This document shows, in pieces, positions 1 through 21,481 of a stretch of 23,878 nucleotides of DNA. Where the stretch lies: positions 1 through 23,878 of the IMG/VR virus record IMGVR_UViG_3300031772_000284, one strand, 5' to 3'. How positions within the stretch are numbered: position 1 is the stretch's first letter; each line of letters starts with the position of its first letter. The notes under the pieces were generated by a model, which ran no database searches, had not been told where the DNA came from, and saw only the letters and a list, made by a program, of their open reading frames with translations. This DNA comes from a virus. The position numbers and the translations under genes were made by a program.

Positions 1-64
1 AAGTCACCAAAGCTTAGCGCGAATTTCTCTAGTACACTACAAAAGCGTCTTTGTAGTTAAATGA
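1..64 (+). CDS. C-terminal tail of an upstream gene (partial)
   Basis: Two + strand frames are open from the window edge. One ends with TGA at 62-64, overlapping the speD ATG as ATGA. The other ends with TAA at 58-60, directly before that ATG. The third frame is closed by TAG at 15-17. The ATGA overlap is also used at other junctions in this phage (3438 and 4639), so I favour the frame ending at 64. Only about 20 residues are visible and no family can be named. Confidence 0.3.
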   Translation, partial: SHQSLARISLVHYKSVFVVK

Positions 65-438
65 AGGGAAAGCACTATCTTGTAGATCTATATGAGTGTA
101 ATCTGTCTAAGATTAACGATCCCCTTTTTATTGATTCGTTGCTCACAGAAGCTTCTAAGATAGCACGATCTACTTTGCTGGATCTTAAACTTCATTTGTT
201 TGAACCGCAAGGCATCACAGGTTTTGCCTTGTTAGCTCAGTCACATATCTCCATTCATACATGGCCCGAAAACGGCTATGTCGCCGTGGATATTTATACC
301 TGCGGTGAAGATACAGATCCGGCAAAGGCAGTCAAATTTATTATTGAGGAGTTAGAAGCTGAGAAACATTTGATTAAAAATATTGCTAGGTACACGCCCG
401 AATGTTTTGTTAATACTCTTGAACCCGTAACTGTTTAG
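61..438 (+). CDS. speD: S-adenosylmethionine decarboxylase-family proenzyme (SpeD)
   Basis: A 125-aa protein, the usual length for the small bacterial, Thermotoga-type SpeD class. These proenzymes cut themselves before a serine, which becomes the pyruvoyl cofactor, and classically decarboxylate S-adenosylmethionine for spermidine synthesis. The signature is clear: SHISIHTWPE at residues 61-70, then VAVDIYTCG at 74-82. Ser61 would be the cleavage and pyruvoyl residue, His66 and Cys81 the processing and catalytic residues, by comparison with T. maritima Ser63, His68 and Cys83. The residue before the scissile serine is Gln60, where the family usually has Glu. speD is a known auxiliary gene of marine cyanophages. 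Some SpeD homologues have been reported to act on arginine or ornithine instead, so the substrate is inferred. No spermidine synthase is visible here. The ATG directly follows or overlaps the previous stop, and no strong Shine-Dalgarno is seen. Confidence 0.9.
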   Translation: MKGKHYLVDLYECNLSKINDPLFIDSLLTEASKIARSTLLDLKLHLFEPQGITGFALLAQSHISIHTWPENGYVAVDIYTCGEDTDPAKAVKFIIEELEAEKHLIKNIARYTPECFVNTLEPVTV

Positions 439-1747: not shown

Positions 1748-2185
1748 GTGGCCCAGTACACAAAAAACCTTGAGCTGGATTCCGTCATTAACAGCGGCAT
1801 CACGGATCCTACTCGTCGTACAGAATCTACTCACTTTGATCAACGTCGGACATTAGATTCCAGCGGCGTGGTTGTAGTTACATCTGAGAATCGTGAGTAT
1901 GCAGCTGATGGCATGTACGGTATTTCAGATGTTTATAAATTAACTGTGAACGCAACAGGTATTTTACGGGTTGATATTCGTAATCAAAATTCTTGCGGTC
2001 CTGTTGTTGTTCTTGACTCGGCTGGTACCGCCGTTTTGACTGCTAATCCATCCAAATTTAGTTCTAGGGCAACGTCCACTACTACGACTACAATCAATAC
2101 CTCAGGTACTTACTACACTTATATTCAACTCAAAGGTCGCAGCGGTTGCGAATACCGCGTGGGCATTAACGTTACCAGCACCTAA
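1748..2185 (+). CDS. Beta-rich hypothetical protein with a PPC-like C-terminal half
   Basis: A 145-aa protein starting with GTG. The N-terminal about 60 residues are polar. Residues 60-145 have the alternating strand pattern of a beta sandwich: a KLTVNATGILRVDI strand, a PVVVLDSAGTAVLTA hairpin, a Thr-rich segment, then GTYYTYIQLKG and a final YRVGINVTS strand. This order resembles bacterial pre-peptidase C-terminal (PPC)-type domains, which are non-catalytic. There is no signal peptide. It overlaps the endolysin start by 1 bp (TAATG), so the two are probably co-translated. It could be a virion decoration or cell-surface binding protein. The fold call is from pattern only. Confidence 0.6.
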   Translation: MAQYTKNLELDSVINSGITDPTRRTESTHFDQRRTLDSSGVVVVTSENREYAADGMYGISDVYKLTVNATGILRVDIRNQNSCGPVVVLDSAGTAVLTANPSKFSSRATSTTTTTINTSGTYYTYIQLKGRSGCEYRVGINVTST

Positions 2186-3441
2186 TGAATATTTCCCCTG
2201 CGGGGGTCAATTTAATAAAAAACTTTGAAGGTCTTAGGCTGACTTCGTATCAATGCGATGCCGGCGTCTGGACTGTTGGATACGGCACCACCGGTGCTCA
2301 AATTGGCCCTGATCTTACGATTACTAAAGAGCAAGCAGAAGAATTTCTTTTGCATACTTTGCAGTACTTTGAAGATTCAGTTTCAGAATTAATCAAAGTT
2401 AGACTTAATCAAAGTGAATTTGATGCTCTAGTAAGTTTTACGTACAACGTAGGTGTTGGTGCGTTTAAACAATCAACATTACTAAGGCTCCTCAACGATG
2501 GAGTTGATCGTTCTATAGTTGCATCAGAGTTATTAAAGTGGACTAAAGTTAATGGAAATGTTAACGAAGGTCTTGCAAACCGCCGTCGGCGCGAAAAAGA
2601 GTTATTTTTAGCTAAATCTGTACATCCACTCTTGGCTACTTCAATTCTGGCGCAGCGTGACACGTGGTTAAAACGTAAACCCGAACAAGCTTCTACTCTT
2701 TCTGCCGAACAAAAAGTTTTTGTTCCGAAAGGAGCTGCTCACGAGTGGCGCACAATCACGATGATTCCCGGAGAAGTTGATTACAGGATTCGACTTGAGG
2801 CTCAACCAGAGCAAGACTGGTGGTTTTACCCAAGCCATTGGAAAATTATCAATGATCTCAAATCTTTGCCCGCTTCAACGGATATTTCTTCGTCTCCCAC
2901 TCCAGTCCACGCAGATAAAGTTTTAAATATTCCTTATTATTCTCAGCGAGATAACGTTCGTGATCCTTTACGGACTTGTTTCTCTAGCTCTTGCGCCATG
3001 ATGCTTAAGGGATTAAAGCCCAACAGCATCGACAACGATGATAAATATATAGCAACTGTGTTTAAACACGGTGATACTACGTCAGCAACAGCGCAGTTGG
3101 AAGCTTTAGAAGATTACGGAGTAAGAGCTGAGTTTTGTCAAAAAGGCTCGTGGAAAGACATTGACGCTCAACTAGATAAAGGTATTGCCGTGCCCATCGG
3201 CATTCTTCATAAAGGTTCAGTTCACAACGCAACTGGAGGGGGTCACTGGATTTGCGTTATAGGACGTTCCGAAGATAATAAAAGTTATGTAGTTAACGAT
3301 CCGTTTGGTGACTTAGATCTTGTTAATGGGGGATACCTCAGCACAAACGGAGCTAAAAAGCTATACTCTAGATTGAATTTAAAACCTCGCTGGATGGTGG
3401 AGGGAGAGGGCTCTGGTTGGTTTATCAAGGTTTTAAAATGA
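2185..3441 (+). CDS. Modular endolysin: GH24 lysozyme, linker domain and C39-like peptidase
   Basis: A 418-aa protein with three parts. Residues 1-145 are a phage-type GH24 muramidase. The E-x8-(D/C)-x5-T triad is Glu15, Cys24 and Thr30, followed by VGYGTTG and the SFTYNVGVGAF helix. The Cys variant is also found in P1 Lyz. Residues 150-225 form a small beta-rich module (DTWLKRKPEQASTL, KVFVPKG, WWFYPSHW) resembling SH3-like modules of cyanobacterial C39-like proteins. Residues 245-418 look like a C39-like papain-fold peptidase: NIPYYSQRDN, Cys265 in RTCFSSSC as nucleophile, His354 in GGGHWICVIG, and Asp372 in VVNDPFGD. It would cut glycan strands and possibly peptide cross-links. There is no signal peptide, so release depends on a holin. 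At 418 aa it is much longer than single-domain GH24 lysins of about 150-180 aa. The downstream gene overlaps by 4 bp. Confidence 0.9.
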   Translation: MNISPAGVNLIKNFEGLRLTSYQCDAGVWTVGYGTTGAQIGPDLTITKEQAEEFLLHTLQYFEDSVSELIKVRLNQSEFDALVSFTYNVGVGAFKQSTLLRLLNDGVDRSIVASELLKWTKVNGNVNEGLANRRRREKELFLAKSVHPLLATSILAQRDTWLKRKPEQASTLSAEQKVFVPKGAAHEWRTITMIPGEVDYRIRLEAQPEQDWWFYPSHWKIINDLKSLPASTDISSSPTPVHADKVLNIPYYSQRDNVRDPLRTCFSSSCAMMLKGLKPNSIDNDDKYIATVFKHGDTTSATAQLEALEDYGVRAEFCQKGSWKDIDAQLDKGIAVPIGILHKGSVHNATGGGHWICVIGRSEDNKSYVVNDPFGDLDLVNGGYLSTNGAKKLYSRLNLKPRWMVEGEGSGWFIKVLK

Positions 3442-4772: not shown

Positions 4773-4952
4773 ATGCGCATTGCTGGCCCCCAAATCCTGA
4801 CCGACCCTTCGTCTATGCCTCGCACTGCGAACCGCTTTGCAGGCCGCGTGGCGAAAGAAAACCCAGGGTTGGTTGAACGCATTACTAACGCTATTATTCC
4901 TGGACACGGTGCCGCAAATCCAGGTGGACGAGAGCCTTCTGCACAAGGTTGA
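4773..4952 (+). CDS. Small hypothetical protein (59 aa)
   Basis: ATG at 4773 is 2 bp after the previous stop, and TGA ends at 4952. The protein is Pro/Gly/Arg-rich (MRIAGPQILTDPSSMPRTAN) with one amphipathic helix (NPGLVERITNAII) and a Gly/Ala-rich tail. Local GC content looks higher than in the flanking genes. Its end overlaps the apparent start of thyX in another frame. I recognise no family. Confidence 0.5.
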   Translation: MRIAGPQILTDPSSMPRTANRFAGRVAKENPGLVERITNAIIPGHGAANPGGREPSAQG

Positions 4953-5628
4953 GCTTAGTTGGATTACTCCCTACGCCGAAAGCGTAGTTGCTAAGCACGC
5001 GAGAGTATCCACAAAAAACCCTGATCGAGACGAGTATACCCGTCTCTTAGAGTACTGTATTCAACACGGACATTGGAGCGTATTTGAGCAAGTCTGCGCC
5101 TCCTTTGAGATTGTTACTACTAGAGCAATTTCACCGCAAATCTTACGGCATAGGAGCTTTACATTCCAGGAAACAAGTCAAAGGTATTGTGATCCTCTAG
5201 ATGTTCTAGAGCAAGTAGCACCTGATTGTTCTGCTTTTGAACTTCGTTCACAAGATTTAAAAAATCGTCAGAACAGCTTTCAGTTTGAGGACGATTCCAC
5301 AGAAGAATTGTTTCGCAAACGTATTGAAGAATTGTTTGAGAGTTCTCGGGAACTTTATGACGATATGCTCTCCGCTAATGTCGCGAAGGAATGTGCCCGT
5401 AATGTGCTTCTAATGTGTTCGCCTACTCGGCTGCATATGACGGGTACGCTGCGCAGTTGGATTTTCTATGTGGGCCTTCGTGGGAATGTCGGGACCCAGC
5501 AAGAGCACCGACAAATTGCTCTTGGGATCGGGGATTATTTAGCTGATTTACTGCCAGTTATTAGTACAGCAGTAATGGAAGCTGCTCATTCAGGCACTAG
5601 TGGCCTTGAAGGTTGGCAATATATTTGA
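4924..5628 (+). CDS. thyX: FAD-dependent thymidylate synthase ThyX
   Basis: ThyX makes dTMP from dUMP using methylene-tetrahydrofolate, FAD and NADPH. The signature RHR-x7-S is intact: RHRSFTFQETSQRY, at residues 75-88 counting from GTG 4924. The C-terminal GTQQEHRQIALGIGDYL matches the conserved Q-Q-E-x-R helix. Homology begins around VELSWITPYAESVVAKHARV, so upstream in-frame codons from 4837 are probably just overlap with the 59-aa gene. GTG 4924 gives 234 aa, a normal length. No clear ribosome site is seen, so a start nearer 4939, by a rare codon or by coupling to the 59-aa gene, is possible. It is the last + strand gene before the hairpin at 5646. Confidence 0.93.
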   Translation: MDESLLHKVELSWITPYAESVVAKHARVSTKNPDRDEYTRLLEYCIQHGHWSVFEQVCASFEIVTTRAISPQILRHRSFTFQETSQRYCDPLDVLEQVAPDCSAFELRSQDLKNRQNSFQFEDDSTEELFRKRIEELFESSRELYDDMLSANVAKECARNVLLMCSPTRLHMTGTLRSWIFYVGLRGNVGTQQEHRQIALGIGDYLADLLPVISTAVMEAAHSGTSGLEGWQYI

Positions 5629-9940: not shown

Positions 9941-10300
9941 TTAGAATTTCATTGCAGGAAATCTAGCTGCTGTACTATCATCATCCTCGTCATCATCTTC
10001 TGAATCTTCTGCTTCATTATCTTCTTCGCCACCAATAAAAAATTCAGATTTCTGATAATCAAATTCTTTACTACGGTCACTGAGTTCTTCGTTTAAACAC
10101 ATACCTGCACAAAAACTTTCACTGACAATTTCAGCGCAATCTTGTGCCGAACGAATTTCTCCTTCGGGAGATATACATTCTTGAAGTAGTTGGTTCGAAA
10201 CCAGCAAAGCACAAACTTTATCAAGTTTGGTGTTCATCTGAATAAGCTGTTCCAGGATTGACTTTTGGAACACTTCAAATTTTTGTGATCTTGATGTCAT
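9941..10300 (-). CDS. Hypothetical protein with very acidic C-terminus (119 aa)
   Basis: Residues 1-45 look like an amphipathic helix or coiled coil (SILEQLIQMNTKLDKVCALL). Residues 90-108 are almost all Glu and Asp (EEDNEAEDSEDDDEDDDS), before a short hydrophobic end (AARFPAMKF). Acidic tails of this kind are common on phage DNA-metabolism proteins and can mimic DNA or recruit partners. No family is recognised. Its ATG overlaps the methyltransferase-like stop (TAATG), so the two are translationally coupled. Confidence 0.6.
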   Translation of the reverse strand: MTSRSQKFEVFQKSILEQLIQMNTKLDKVCALLVSNQLLQECISPEGEIRSAQDCAEIVSESFCAGMCLNEELSDRSKEFDYQKSEFFIGGEEDNEAEDSEDDDEDDDSTAARFPAMKF

Positions 10301-10977
10301 TATTCGAGCGGAGGAAGTGGCTCAACGCGGTCCCAATCTAAACCGAATGTCACTTGAGTGCCATCGCACCAGTTTTCCGGCTTCTGAAAGAGAAACCAAC
10401 AGCTAGTTACAGAATCTTTGGTCGAACCAAGTGCCCTGAATTTCGGGCGGGGGCTCAGAACAATCATGTTCGACAATTTATTTGCCAAGAGAAAATTTCG
10501 CCTCCTAGCAACAGGTTCTATGAAAGATAAACGATCTAAAACAGCAATCCCTGAAGTAGCGACCTGCATACCATATTCAAGAATGTACTCAGTGTAATTA
10601 GATAAACCCATTGTGCTGGAAATAACCCAGTTATACTTCTTTGATTTTTCTGAAATCCACCAAACAGGATCTGTTAAATTTTCTTCTTTTTCATTACGGG
10701 TTACTGCCAGGTTATGTGAGCGCAATTGATCGCTAAGAACTCCCAACGGATCGTGCGGCACTAAAACGGAACCAGTAATAAATGAATGTTTAATTAGAGA
10801 ATGTGTTACCCCTTTCGGGATACTGTAAAATTCTGACAAAGTTTTGAGGGGACTGGCTCCGTTAGAGCTTAACTGTTTTTCGAGTGTCGTCCAGTGTTTA
10901 GTGAGTATAGTTAACACATCAATTTCACCCCCGTGGCAACCATGGAGTGGGAAACCGCTGAGCAACGCTTTACTCAT
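10300..10977 (-). CDS. Methyltransferase-like protein without the catalytic NPPY motif
   Basis: The C-terminal half resembles phage N6-adenine methyltransferase-type proteins. It has DRLSFIEPVARRRNFL (148-163), VLSPRPKF (173-180) and DSVTSCWFLFQK (188-199), the pattern that in those enzymes follows the (D/N)PP(Y/F) catalytic loop. Here the corresponding place reads WVISSTMGLSN (117-127), with no NPPY. No clear glycine-rich AdoMet-binding motif is seen in the N-terminal half. So the fold is likely but methylation is not. Start is uncertain: ATG 10977 overlaps the NblA-like gene on the other strand by 36 bp, whereas GTG 10917 (205 aa) avoids this and has GGGGGTG 8 nt upstream. Coupled to the 119-aa gene by TAATG. 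Confidence 0.68.
   Translation of the reverse strand: MSKALLSGFPLHGCHGGEIDVLTILTKHWTTLEKQLSSNGASPLKTLSEFYSIPKGVTHSLIKHSFITGSVLVPHDPLGVLSDQLRSHNLAVTRNEKEENLTDPVWWISEKSKKYNWVISSTMGLSNYTEYILEYGMQVATSGIAVLDRLSFIEPVARRRNFLLANKLSNMIVLSPRPKFRALGSTKDSVTSCWFLFQKPENWCDGTQVTFGLDWDRVEPLPPLE
10906..10911 (+). promoter_or_regulatory. Candidate -10 element for the NblA-like gene
   Basis: TATAGT on the + strand lies 30 nt before ATG 10942, inside the methyltransferase-like gene on the opposite strand. No good -35 hexamer sits 16-18 bp upstream. Offered only because an isolated + strand gene needs its own promoter. Confidence 0.25.
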
Positions 10978-11178
10978 CAGAGGGTCATGCTCGAAGCTAA
11001 AAAACTTAGCAAAGACGAACTTTTAAAGATTTTTGATTCAGTTTATAGACAACAACAAATGCACAATCGATTGTTTACTTGTTTAGTTAAATGGTGCGTT
11101 AGTAATTCTGTAGAACTTCCCGCCTTCGATCAGCTACTAACACCCAAAATAGTTGATCACCCTGCGGAACAGAAATAA
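10942..11178 (+). CDS. nblA: Probable NblA-like phycobilisome-degradation adaptor
   Basis: A 78-aa protein from ATG 10942 (81 aa from GTG 10933). Residues 7-50 follow the NblA pattern without gaps: EQRF (7-10), a helix, LSKDELLKIF (22-31), VYRQ (34-37), an N in HNR, then LFTCLVK (44-50). Cyanobacterial NblA, for example from Synechococcus 7942, has EQQF, ISREDLEDLF, VVRQ, an N, then IFKGMIR at matching spacing. NblA links phycobilisomes to Clp protease, so antenna proteins are broken down to amino acids. Phage NblA is known in freshwater and uncultured marine cyanophages. A 28-residue C-terminal extension is not typical. It is the only + strand gene among - strand genes and overlaps both neighbours antisense. 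The match is from memory and from one family member. Confidence 0.62.
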   Translation: MEWETAEQRFTHQRVMLEAKKLSKDELLKIFDSVYRQQQMHNRLFTCLVKWCVSNSVELPAFDQLLTPKIVDHPAEQK

Positions 11179-11500
11179 ACCCCAAACGTTGTATATAACG
11201 AGATAATAAAGCTGAACGACTTGACTCAGGTTGAGTATAAATATGATGGTCTTCTGGAATTTCTTTGAGTAATTTTTTAAGTAAAACAAAAGCGGCAAGT
11301 AAATGCTGAAAAGAACCCACAGGTTGTTGCGCAACAACACGTCTAGATCTTTTATTCTTACGGCCAAAGTACCAATCGTTTGCTGCTCTTTTGGATTTGT
11401 TTACAATGATTCCCAAATTCCACACGTCGGGAGCAATCCGCTCTAAGTACAACGTAGACCAGATACCGTCAATCTTGATTCGAGCTGTTTTAAATCTCAT
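11099..11500 (-). CDS. Hypothetical protein, weakly GNAT-like (133 aa)
   Basis: An alternating beta-alpha protein. Two strands (LYLERIAPDVWNLGIIV) are followed by a basic loop, a long helix (FQHLLAAFVLLKKLLKEI), then IYTQPESSRSALLSRYIQRLGF, which resembles the C-terminal part of a GNAT acetyltransferase. The acetyl-CoA binding loop is not clear, so the assignment is weak. Start is ATG 11500, just after the terminator at 11511-11536. Its last 27 codons overlap the end of the + strand NblA-like gene. Confidence 0.5.
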   Translation of the reverse strand: MRFKTARIKIDGIWSTLYLERIAPDVWNLGIIVNKSKRAANDWYFGRKNKRSRRVVAQQPVGSFQHLLAAFVLLKKLLKEIPEDHHIYTQPESSRSALLSRYIQRLGFISVPQGDQLFWVLVADRRREVLQNY

Positions 11501-11508
11501 AATTTACA

Positions 11509-11536
11509 AGAAAAAAAAGGCGGCTTAGTAGCCGCC
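11509..11536 (-). terminator. Intrinsic terminator (minus strand)
   Basis: Read on the - strand, GGCGGCT (11536-11530) pairs with AGCCGCC (11525-11519) around a 4-nt loop. A run of eight U residues (complement of 11511-11518) follows. It ends the message of the 273-aa and upstream genes and lies 10-20 bp before the 133-aa gene. Confidence 0.85.
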
Positions 11537-11585
11537 CTATTGTTCCATTCCCCGTCTCCCCTTAAGGAGGTAGTGAAAGTCTACC

Positions 11586-12407
11586 TTAGAAATCCAGTCC
11601 TAACGACTTTGCTTGATCTTCCGTAAGCTCGACAGCTTTTTTAGGTTTTGGAGTAGAAGCTGTAGTCGGTTCATCAGCATCATCCACCACAGCAGACTTA
11701 AGAGCCTTAGCAGGAGCTGAACTCTGACCAAAAGTCCGCTCTTGCGATGGTGGTCGAGATGCGGCAAACTGCGCTTTAATCTCCGTGTGATCTGAGCCAA
11801 GTGAAAGCTCAACCAAATCCGATCCAGGAATGTGAGATTTGAGTGCGGCAGCGATGAGCCCAGGTCCTTGATTCGAAATCCAATCATCGATGTCATTGAT
11901 TAATTTAGTTTCTTCGTCTGTAGCAACAGGACGATCAGAGAATTCAAGAGCATTAAAGTTAATCTTTGCTCCATCAGCACCAGTTACAGGATCGCGTTCA
12001 TTGAAACTTCGAGTTACAAACTTAGTAGCTGTAACAACTGAAGCACAGTTAATCCTGTTGTTGTAAAGAGTTTGAAAATAACCAATAAAATTTTTCTGAG
12101 AGGATTTGCCAGAAATCATAGAAGTAGTCACACATCGAGGAGGAAGCAACCTGTGGTTAGGGCTGACACCGATGTAAGCAATGCGGAGAAATTCTTCTTG
12201 ATTACGCATTCCAAGGTTGCCAAAATACGGGCTAAACCCCAAAAGCACAAATTCAATTGGAATACCATTGTCATTTCGATCTACGATCGCGCTGTCAGAA
12301 TCAACATCAGATTTCCAACGACGAGCCTGTAGATCAATTCTTAAAGTATGTGGGGGAACATTACAAAGAATTTCGTCTTCAGAAAATTGACCAGCGATGA
12401 ACACCAT
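11586..12407 (-). CDS. Hypothetical protein of the replication cluster (273 aa)
   Basis: A two-part protein. Residues 1-190 form a compact mixed domain with LRIDLQARRWK, IPIEFVLLGFSPYFG and FLRIAYIGVSPNH segments. The rest is a flexible Ser/Ala/Pro/Lys-rich region ending in ELTEDQAKSLGLDF. A folded head plus disordered linker and short acidic/hydrophobic tip is the plan of phage single-strand binding and recombination-mediator proteins. It sits 14 bp after the SSB-like gene. I do not recognise its family. AGGT lies 8 nt before the ATG. Confidence 0.6.
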   Translation of the reverse strand: MVFIAGQFSEDEILCNVPPHTLRIDLQARRWKSDVDSDSAIVDRNDNGIPIEFVLLGFSPYFGNLGMRNQEEFLRIAYIGVSPNHRLLPPRCVTTSMISGKSSQKNFIGYFQTLYNNRINCASVVTATKFVTRSFNERDPVTGADGAKINFNALEFSDRPVATDEETKLINDIDDWISNQGPGLIAAALKSHIPGSDLVELSLGSDHTEIKAQFAASRPPSQERTFGQSSAPAKALKSAVVDDADEPTTASTPKPKKAVELTEDQAKSLGLDF

Positions 12408-18735: not shown

Positions 18736-20286
18736 CTAGCGTAAGCACCTCTGTATGACATCAACTGTATCATTTTGATTCTTTAAGTTTACAGAGTAAA
18801 GTTCATCACTGAACATTTTACAAACAGCAGGCGTTGTAGAGTTCACACAAATTGTGCTCCACTGCATTCCAATAGTTTGTTTGAACTTGTTTAAACGATT
18901 AATAAAATTATCATGTACTTCACTGTGTCCATCAGTAATCATCAAAACATCTGCTCTCTCTTTAATATTAGCTTTATCTAGAGCGTGGGCAAGCACCGCG
19001 TTAAAGCTAGTGCCTCCACCTAGTGTCCAGGTGCCAACAAAGTCGAGTAGTTCTAAATTATTATTCCGGTCAGCACTAAGCGTGACTGAACCTTCAATTC
19101 GTGTATCGAATAAGTAGATTTGAACACTACGTTTCTCTTTAAGAGCTTGCTCAGCAATAACAAAAGCAATAGCTTTACTCCAAATTTCAGGCTCTCCTCC
19201 CATAGAACCAGATACATCGATGTACATAACTATCGGTCCTTTACCAATGTCCTTACGGTGTGCTGTGAAATCTTTTGTTAAAAGAGTTTTCTGAGAATAT
19301 TTGAGGGCAAAGAGCGCACGACCTTGCTCAGTGCCAGCTAATGCAATTTCACTAGAGAAAGCTTTAGGGACATCATCACTAAATTTTGCCCCCGTAATAG
19401 ATTCGTATTTATCTGTAATTTTTCTTGCTCGTTTCCGTTCTTGCCAAATACGGCGAAGAGCACCTAATTTTTTAATTAATTGTTGAAGTTGTTTGTTATA
19501 ACTTAAACTCTTCGCTAGATCTTTCTTTTCCTGTAGGTCTAGTGAGTGTGAGCCTGCACCCGCTTGGCTACCATGAAGTGCTTCAACAGCATCATTTGTT
19601 TCCTGACAATTTTCAAGAGCCTTATCAATAATTTTATGTGACTGACTTTGAATTTTATCCCTCGCTTTTTCTACCGCATCGGATATATCTTGAGCCAGAG
19701 CTTTTCCTTCTCTCCGTAGTTTCTCTGCTTCCGCCCTATCACCCTTTGCTTGAGCTTCTTGGAACTGTTCCCGTAGCTCTCTTAGTTTTTTACCAGCGTC
19801 AGTTAAGAGCTGTACGTCAAATTGACCTTGCTCAATAGCTTCAGTAATAACTTTTGAGAGTTCGTTGAGAATATTAACGGCATTATTACCCGCATTAAAC
19901 TGGTCACCGATGCTCCTATGAAGCAGGGTTGGCCACGCAGCCGCTTGACTTAAGTCTCCCATGATCGCATACCAGATACTGTTCTCCGGTTTAAACCCGC
20001 GTGGCACTGCCTTGGTATCCCCGTCACACATCTTTCTAAAATAATCTTCGTAGTCATCTTCAGTTACTAACCAATTAACATTGTCACCGTTATATAATCT
20101 TTCAAATAATTCTTTGCCAAAACGAGATAACTGTTTGATGTTATAGGAATCAATCAAATAAGTTACTGAGGGACGTGCATCCCTAATAAAGTCTTCCCAC
20201 AAAAAATCGGCTAAAGCTGAGCATGAAAGAGTCAGAGGTTCGTTAGCAATTAAACGAATAATCTCGGAGTGCGTTGTGAGGTTCAT
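18736..20286 (-). CDS. VWA-domain protein, ViaA/CoxE-like
   Basis: Residue numbers count from an upstream ATG at 20310 (524 aa). ATG 20286 (516 aa) is preferred because it starts 4 nt after the MoxR stop with AAAGAG before it. Residues 1-150 are mixed helix, and 150-300 are a long charged coiled coil (KKLRELREQFQEAQAKG). The C-terminal VWA domain (358-524) keeps all metal-site residues: DVSGS with Asp365, Ser367 and Ser369, Thr434 in GGGTSF, and Asp460 in ITDGHS. The layout (N-terminal helical region then C-terminal VWA, next to a MoxR ATPase) matches E. coli ViaA with its partner RavA. Together such pairs remodel or mature target proteins. The target here is unknown. Confidence 0.83.
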   Translation of the reverse strand: MNLTTHSEIIRLIANEPLTLSCSALADFLWEDFIRDARPSVTYLIDSYNIKQLSRFGKELFERLYNGDNVNWLVTEDDYEDYFRKMCDGDTKAVPRGFKPENSIWYAIMGDLSQAAAWPTLLHRSIGDQFNAGNNAVNILNELSKVITEAIEQGQFDVQLLTDAGKKLRELREQFQEAQAKGDRAEAEKLRREGKALAQDISDAVEKARDKIQSQSHKIIDKALENCQETNDAVEALHGSQAGAGSHSLDLQEKKDLAKSLSYNKQLQQLIKKLGALRRIWQERKRARKITDKYESITGAKFSDDVPKAFSSEIALAGTEQGRALFALKYSQKTLLTKDFTAHRKDIGKGPIVMYIDVSGSMGGEPEIWSKAIAFVIAEQALKEKRSVQIYLFDTRIEGSVTLSADRNNNLELLDFVGTWTLGGGTSFNAVLAHALDKANIKERADVLMITDGHSEVHDNFINRLNKFKQTIGMQWSTICVNSTTPAVCKMFSDELYSVNLKNQNDTVDVIQRCLR

Positions 20287-20290
20287 TTGA

Positions 20291-21481
20291 TTACTCTTTA
20301 CTAAAGTCACTAATAGCCCGTGTAAGTGTATTGCAGTTGTTTTGTAAATTTTGCTGAAGTTTCACACCTTTAGATCTAGTAGTAATTGACATGCGGAATC
20401 GAGTTCCATCAAGTATCTCACCAACTTTATCTCGTACAGTTGTCATATCTCTATGGTATTTCTTCAATAGAGTAACAAACTCATTTAACTCTCCCAATCC
20501 TTTTGCCTGGAATTTATGTTGCAGATTTGTATATTCAGCCACTATTCCAGCTGCTGCCCGCTTAGCGTCACTGAAAACATGATCCGCCGTGGGAACTTCC
20601 TGATCTAACACTTCCAAGATTACCTCCTGATCTTCTTTAGTTTGGTAAACAATATGTATCAAACTGTTGTGCATATGTTCTGGATAAAGCTTATCGTCAC
20701 CCTGCACTATTGCCCAAGCTTTTAGAAACTTAAGCACTTGTACGCGGCGACGATCACTAATAAAAATGTTGCGGTTAGCAAGCATTTCCCAGACACTACT
20801 GAACCGATCAAGAAACTCTTCTGAAATTTCAATTGTTTGAGCAGATTCTTGTAGATCTTGTAACTCAGCAAGTGTAATATGCTCCCCAACTTGCGGTCGT
20901 TCGTTACAACCTAGTGCCCATTCATCTAGCTTTCGTTTAGATACAGGTTTACGGAGAAGATCAACCGTGGGGCGGAATAGAAATCTATCGGCAAATGCCT
21001 GTAGAGATTCCTCATCGGGCCAACTGTTTGTAGCAGAAATAATGGACTGAATTGGGGTTTGAACTAAGTCTTTGCCGTTATTGAATGTACGTTCATTCAG
21101 CAAAGTTAGTAGTGAATTTAAGATTGCCGAACTTCCTCTAAAGAGTTCATCCAAAAATCCAATGTGGCTGCTAGGTAAGTAACCGTCTATGTCGCGTGTG
21201 TATTCATCTTTGAGAAGTTTAGTTACAGCAACAGGACCAAATACTTCAGACGGATCTGTTGTTGGAGTCAGTAAATAACCGAAGTAATTTGCTCCGACAA
21301 TTCCTTTACAAATACTTCTAACAAGATCTGATTTACCTGTGCCAGGAACACCCAACAAGAACGCATTTTGCTTACTTAGAAGTGTTGCTAAAAGACCATC
21401 GATAATGTGCTCACGTTCAAGAGCAGAGTTATTAAGTGCTCCTCGAAAATTTTGAAGCTTGGTGAATAAAGTGTCTTTCAT
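20291..21481 (-). CDS. MoxR-family AAA+ ATPase, RavA-like
   Basis: A 396-aa AAA+ protein. Walker A is GVPGTGKS (44-51), the MoxR loop follows (LTPTTDPSEVFGP), Walker B is IGFLDE (Asp111, Glu112), sensor 1 SATN (Asn152), and the arginine-type motif ADRFLFR (Arg166). The region SDRRRVQVLKFLKAWA matches the sensor 2/lid part of RavA (SDRRWKKAIRLLQ). A helical tail follows and takes part in partner binding in this family. MoxR ATPases work with VWA proteins as chaperone-like remodellers of large complexes. The VWA gene follows directly, and the 71-aa and 405-aa genes precede in the same direction. The upstream gap of 12 bp holds no promoter. Confidence 0.87.
   Translation of the reverse strand: MKDTLFTKLQNFRGALNNSALEREHIIDGLLATLLSKQNAFLLGVPGTGKSDLVRSICKGIVGANYFGYLLTPTTDPSEVFGPVAVTKLLKDEYTRDIDGYLPSSHIGFLDELFRGSSAILNSLLTLLNERTFNNGKDLVQTPIQSIISATNSWPDEESLQAFADRFLFRPTVDLLRKPVSKRKLDEWALGCNERPQVGEHITLAELQDLQESAQTIEISEEFLDRFSSVWEMLANRNIFISDRRRVQVLKFLKAWAIVQGDDKLYPEHMHNSLIHIVYQTKEDQEVILEVLDQEVPTADHVFSDAKRAAAGIVAEYTNLQHKFQAKGLGELNEFVTLLKKYHRDMTTVRDKVGEILDGTRFRMSITTRSKGVKLQQNLQNNCNTLTRAISDFSKE

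Follow-up and report, generated by a model that had tools for sequence, protein, structure and literature searches.

The analysed DNA, referred to below as the window, is the whole stretch of 23,878 nucleotides of the IMG/VR virus record IMGVR_UViG_3300031772_000284. It contains a small gene on the plus strand whose product of 78 aa resembles NblA, a host protein by which light-harvesting antennae are tagged for degradation, and whose relatives are summarized here as family I. The locus consists of the following features:

10300-10839, minus strand: methyltransferase-like gene, 179 aa, re-called from TTG 10839 (PHROG 799)
10840-10941, no strand assigned: divergent intergenic region containing the element GTGAGTATAGTTAACACA
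10942-11178, plus strand: NblA-like gene (family I), 78 aa, frame intact in ~85 loci, under purifying selection, top match of the NblA profile
10951-11091, plus strand: NblA-like core, residues 4-50, with 47 ungapped columns against NblA columns 7-53 (hhalign) and predicted helices
11092-11175, plus strand: C-terminal extension, residues 51-78, defined by column counts in 45 distinct sequences
11099-11500, minus strand: ORF of unknown family that shares 80 bp with the 3' end of the NblA-like gene
11517-11538, minus strand: strong terminator-like hairpin with a T run, located after ORF 11586-12407 and facing the minus-strand transcript

The 78-aa ORF at 10942-11178 (plus strand) is a real gene, for which an alternative in-frame start is present at GTG 10933. 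By using the protein and then growing alignments as queries, about 85 relatives with 100% to 43% identity were identified in IMG/VR, and within the searches made the hits were confined to phage contigs. The open frame is intact in all of these ~85 loci. For codons 1-52, which are located almost entirely outside the 3' antisense overlap, pairwise comparison of close relatives revealed dN/dS values of ~0.01-0.08, and therefore the family I protein is under strong purifying selection. In codons 53-68, which overlap with the minus-strand ORF 11099-11500, selection is looser in most of the compared pairs. The 80-bp overlap and the position as the only gene on its own strand might suggest that the frame is open merely by chance, opposite to real genes, and is no gene at all, but this is hardly credible given a frame kept in every locus down to 43% identity and such low dN/dS values in codons almost all outside the overlap; conservation of the frame rules it out. 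Both the ORF and its isolated position had been noted in a preliminary description of this DNA and were confirmed: it is the sole credible plus-strand gene between 5698 and 23484, all other credible genes there being located on the minus strand. Family I is an old, conserved gene of a widespread phage group.

Among the loci listed, the gene occupies the same site in the same orientation, opposite to the replication genes, in ~85 contigs. It is flanked by the methyltransferase-like gene and, on the other side, by ORF 11099-11500 or, where this is absent, by ORF 11586. Since position and orientation are fixed across diverged contigs, whose copies reach 57% divergence at the protein level, the recent insertion suggested in the preliminary description can be dismissed. 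The 5' overlap described there was caused by an over-long start call (ATG 10977) of the methyltransferase-like gene. This longer ORF is not conserved. The neighbour has a conserved FYxxPxG motif, and 64 of 73 loci share a start codon placed exactly three codons ahead of it, which corresponds to TTG 10839 in the window. In most of the relatives listed, a stop codon is located soon upstream of the re-called start. The two genes are thus divergent and ~100 bp apart. The label methyltransferase-like has weak support, from a match to PHROG 799 at 1e-6. At the 3' end, by contrast, an 80-bp overlap of the two genes in tail-to-tail arrangement is genuine and is kept in many relatives; the GNAT-like label given to ORF 11099-11500 gained no Pfam support, neither for the ORF alone nor in five relatives. 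The family of this ORF was not found in L056, L058, L062-L065, L080-L084, L086 and L087, where the NblA-like gene is kept.

The element GTGAGTATAGTTAACACA at 10901-10918, ~25-40 bp upstream of the NblA-like gene, occurs only once in the window and is conserved in the closer relatives. It may belong to a promoter; a sigma-70 consensus promoter was not found upstream of the gene. In the alignment of relatives the hairpin at 11517-11538 shows a paired change from GGCGGC/GCCGCC to GGCGAC/GTCGCC. It could end the minus-strand transcript ahead of the NblA-like gene, and it may divide two minus-strand transcripts. A search against Rfam found nothing. The opposite strand, the conserved upstream element and the facing hairpin make a separately controlled transcript of the NblA-like gene, as proposed before, plausible.

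Protein identities place the phage group in relationship to Synechococcus phage S-EIV1. In the relative G006, TerL shares 52% identity and a further ORF of the virion region 69% identity with S-EIV1, and the lysin, ThyX, SpeD, exonuclease and primase of the window have S-EIV1 counterparts at 30-47%. Because of this kinship, a phycobilisome-bearing host is likely for the window phage. SpeD (S-adenosylmethionine decarboxylase; 61-438, plus strand) and the thymidylate synthase ThyX (4837-5628, plus strand) are metabolic genes of host type. The lysin (2185-3441) consists of a phage lysozyme domain joined to a C39-like peptidase domain. At 18736-21481 on the minus strand, a MoxR-type AAA ATPase adjoins a von Willebrand A protein, a pairing which is kept in G006.

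When all PDB chains were searched in an unbiased way with the window protein, NblA of S. elongatus (3cs5) was the best match (E = 0.024), with residues 6-50 aligned to residues 12-56 of 3cs5 without any gap. The ungapped resemblance of ~45 residues noticed previously is therefore confirmed. When a profile of true NblAs was applied to all ORFs of the window, 10942-11178 ranked first (E = 0.0029; runner-up 0.18). In profile-profile comparison with hhalign, family I matched true NblAs at P = 2-3e-5 and a probability of 73-77% over 47 columns, which are exactly the NblA core, with ~17% identity. Against scores of 29.5-30.2, none of 300 column shuffles exceeded 18.3. The NblA profile A5 scored the window protein with 13.3 bits and the published NblA of S-SCSM1 with 3.6 bits; a profile built from cyanobacteria only gave 55 bits for Ma-LMM01, 40 for PaV-LD and 13.4 for the window protein. 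The AlphaFold2 monomer of the window protein, a model of middling confidence (pLDDT 79, pTM 0.47), has predicted helices at residues 6-20 and 24-54, which agrees with the two-helix architecture, a helix-loop-helix of ~60 residues, expected for NblA; the total of 78 aa is owing to the tail.

Pfam gave a mixed result. The window protein alone did not match PF04485 at E≤1, whereas matches below the cut-off were obtained for relatives. The best relative reaches 21.4-22 bits, and no member of family I reaches the curated gathering cut-off of 25 bits. In diverged members NblA is the best or sole Pfam match (best 3.5e-4), and of the whole phage records searched with PF04485, 11 of 14 contain a match, mostly to family I (7e-6 to 4e-3 per genome). 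The NCBIfam NblA model matched the window protein at 0.029 and a spore-germination model matched it at 0.0014; the latter model and DUF4158 show weak matches of similar strength to some members of family I. Origin as a fragment of a Tn3 transposase (DUF4158) was considered and rejected, since the match is partial (residues 25-68) and at best weaker than that of NblA. Further searches were negative. The predicted model gave no match to the PDB by Foldseek or by VIA-align, which is uninformative for a two-helix model, and NblA was not among the PDB matches of the relative L102 by phmmer. No credible match was found in phage isolates by tblastn with the window protein, the relative L012 or two cyanobacterial NblAs, and no match in scans of genome contigs with family I and with S. 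elongatus NblA. Of the two cyanobacterial probes, the one of Anabaena is identical to PDB 1ojh letter by letter. As the cut-off is missed, the protein is called NblA-like here and not filed as a PF04485 member. The NblA likeness noted in the original description is thus supported, as remote homology, by the PDB search, the profile-profile comparison and the ranking of the window ORFs, although the window protein alone falls short of PF04485. It is likely but not certain that family I is a remote homologue of NblA, for which the sequence comparisons give good but not overwhelming support.

Among 45 distinct sequences, W3, E7, Q8, F10, H12, K21, L22, L44, F45, L48, W51, C52, L59, P60 and L65 are invariant. 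Of the LxxEQxF motif of NblA, E7, Q8 and F10 are retained, and the position of the leading leucine is variable. In family I, no conservation is seen for the lysine located close to the end of the NblA core. The invariant L48 is found at the position equivalent to L51, a residue that matters in NblA. W51, C52, L59, P60 and L65 belong to the tail, in which H73-P74 are also nearly invariant. This C-terminal extension of ~28 residues (51-78), described before as unlike NblA, is real and has no counterpart in NblA. As reported in PMC4103541, NblA contacts ClpC close to the N terminus, and its contact with phycobiliproteins is close to the C terminus. By analogy, the conserved C-terminal addition may alter or tune target binding.

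In large relatives (L015, L107, L108, L111 and L114 of records G001 and G004-G007) a second small ORF matches PF04485. This family II comprises 59 IMG/VR loci. It is present in all six tested family I records of at least 55 kb, where both families share a strand and, assuming that the near-complete records are circular, are separated by ~24-30 kb. Of 17 family II records, 9 carry family I as well, among them the three largest; the others are fragments or are devoid of family I. Family II matches NblA over the same 47 columns (hhalign, P ~3e-5) and is predicted to form a helix-turn-helix. In its control of 300 shuffles the maximum score was 18.8; a single score of 133 in an earlier run of 100 shuffles was taken for a parsing error and was not seen in this rerun. 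When the profiles of families I and II were compared directly, nothing beyond chance was found, and tblastn of the family II protein against phage isolates gave no credible match. In S-EIV1 (KJ410740), the sole Pfam match of the protein AHV82245 (73902-74222; L141:33902-34222), which is annotated as hypothetical, is NblA (0.014). AHV82245 is located near a homologue of the neighbour gene of family II, at the site taken by family II in the relatives. Beside family II, G006 encodes a Dps/ferritin-like protein (45993-46532; L130), the counterpart of the DNA-binding ferritin-like protein of S-EIV1, and a small helix-turn-helix-like protein (46534-46830; L130).

Taken from these comparisons, the gene is probably a remote NblA homologue which would act as a proteolysis adaptor supplied by the phage. 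Alternatively, the likeness to NblA might be convergent, in a small helical protein of the phage that has another origin and serves, for instance, as a regulator or to inhibit an enzyme of the host: the fold is simple, resemblance among short helical proteins does not require a shared ancestor, no member passes the curated PF04485 cut-off, and weak DUF4158 matches cover residues 25-68. However, two separate families of the same phages match exactly the 47-column core at P ~2-3e-5 each, the shuffled controls stay far below the real scores and the DUF4158 match is partial and at best weaker than that of NblA, so that such convergence appears quite improbable.

If the protein derives from NblA, its target might have changed. 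The part facing ClpC would be kept, and another protein of the host or the phage would be delivered via the conserved C-terminal extension. This extension matches the core in its degree of conservation and has no NblA counterpart, a lysine close to the end of the core is not retained, and the second NblA-like protein of the same phages could do the classical job. Against this, the invariant L48 fits retained phycobilisome binding, and we consider a retargeted adaptor unlikely, if conceivable. Tentatively, families I and II could also form a two-part NblA system, either as a heterodimer or with ClpC delivery and antenna recognition split between them, in which the tail of family I would give a new target or phage-specific control. 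According to the title of Baier 2014, as cited in PMC7966870, NblA1 and NblA2 of Synechocystis form a heterodimer.

For the favoured reading, a phage-supplied NblA-type adaptor, there is published precedent for phage NblA and phycobilisome breakdown (PMC9602691; PMC4103541). As stated in PMC9602691 with reference to the original work, NblAs of freshwater and marine cyanophages led to phycobilin loss when expressed in cyanobacteria. By analogy, it is plausible that the family I protein breaks down phycobilisomes, acting as a phage-encoded, NblA-type adaptor of ClpC whose targeting is perhaps altered. During infection, the NblA-like gene would be transcribed alone, opposite to the replication genes, and its product would dimerise. 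The conserved N-terminal part (EQxF) would engage ClpC of the host, and the second helix together with the WC...LP...L tail would engage phycobiliproteins. Degradation of the antennae by the Clp protease would then free amino acids and lower the light input.

Antenna destruction by phage NblA has been documented in a few isolates. If both families are functional, this strategy would be a fixed, ancient trait of widespread S-EIV1-like cyanophages which was missed by standard annotation, S-EIV1 included. In that case, family I would also represent a naturally varied ClpC adaptor that carries an additional conserved module, and with it the target choice of NblA could be probed.

With cyanobacterial NblA (PF04485; 1ojh, 2q8v and 3cs5), family I shares the helix-turn-helix core of ~47 residues, which aligns without gaps, EQxF close to the N terminus and the aliphatic/aromatic pattern of the second helix. 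It differs in that the core is ~17% identical to NblA, in scores below the Pfam cut-off and in the extra conserved tail of 28 residues. The freshwater cyanophages Ma-LMM01 and PaV-LD also have phage-borne NblAs, but these resemble host NblA closely (55 and 40 bits), and neither phage carries family I. In Ma-LMM01, nblA is located in the DNA-processing region and expressed early (PMC4103541). Remote NblAs of marine cyanophages are described for S-SCSM1, S-TIM5 and podoviruses (reviewed in PMC9602691) and, like family I, are recognised only by distant-homology methods. The S-SCSM1 NblA, however, has 54 aa without the tail, fits the NblA profile more poorly than the window protein and is not detectably of one family with family I. 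S-EIV1 belongs to the same broader phage group and AHV82245 has its NblA match; family I was not found there, and AHV82245 is located at the site of family II, not at that of family I.
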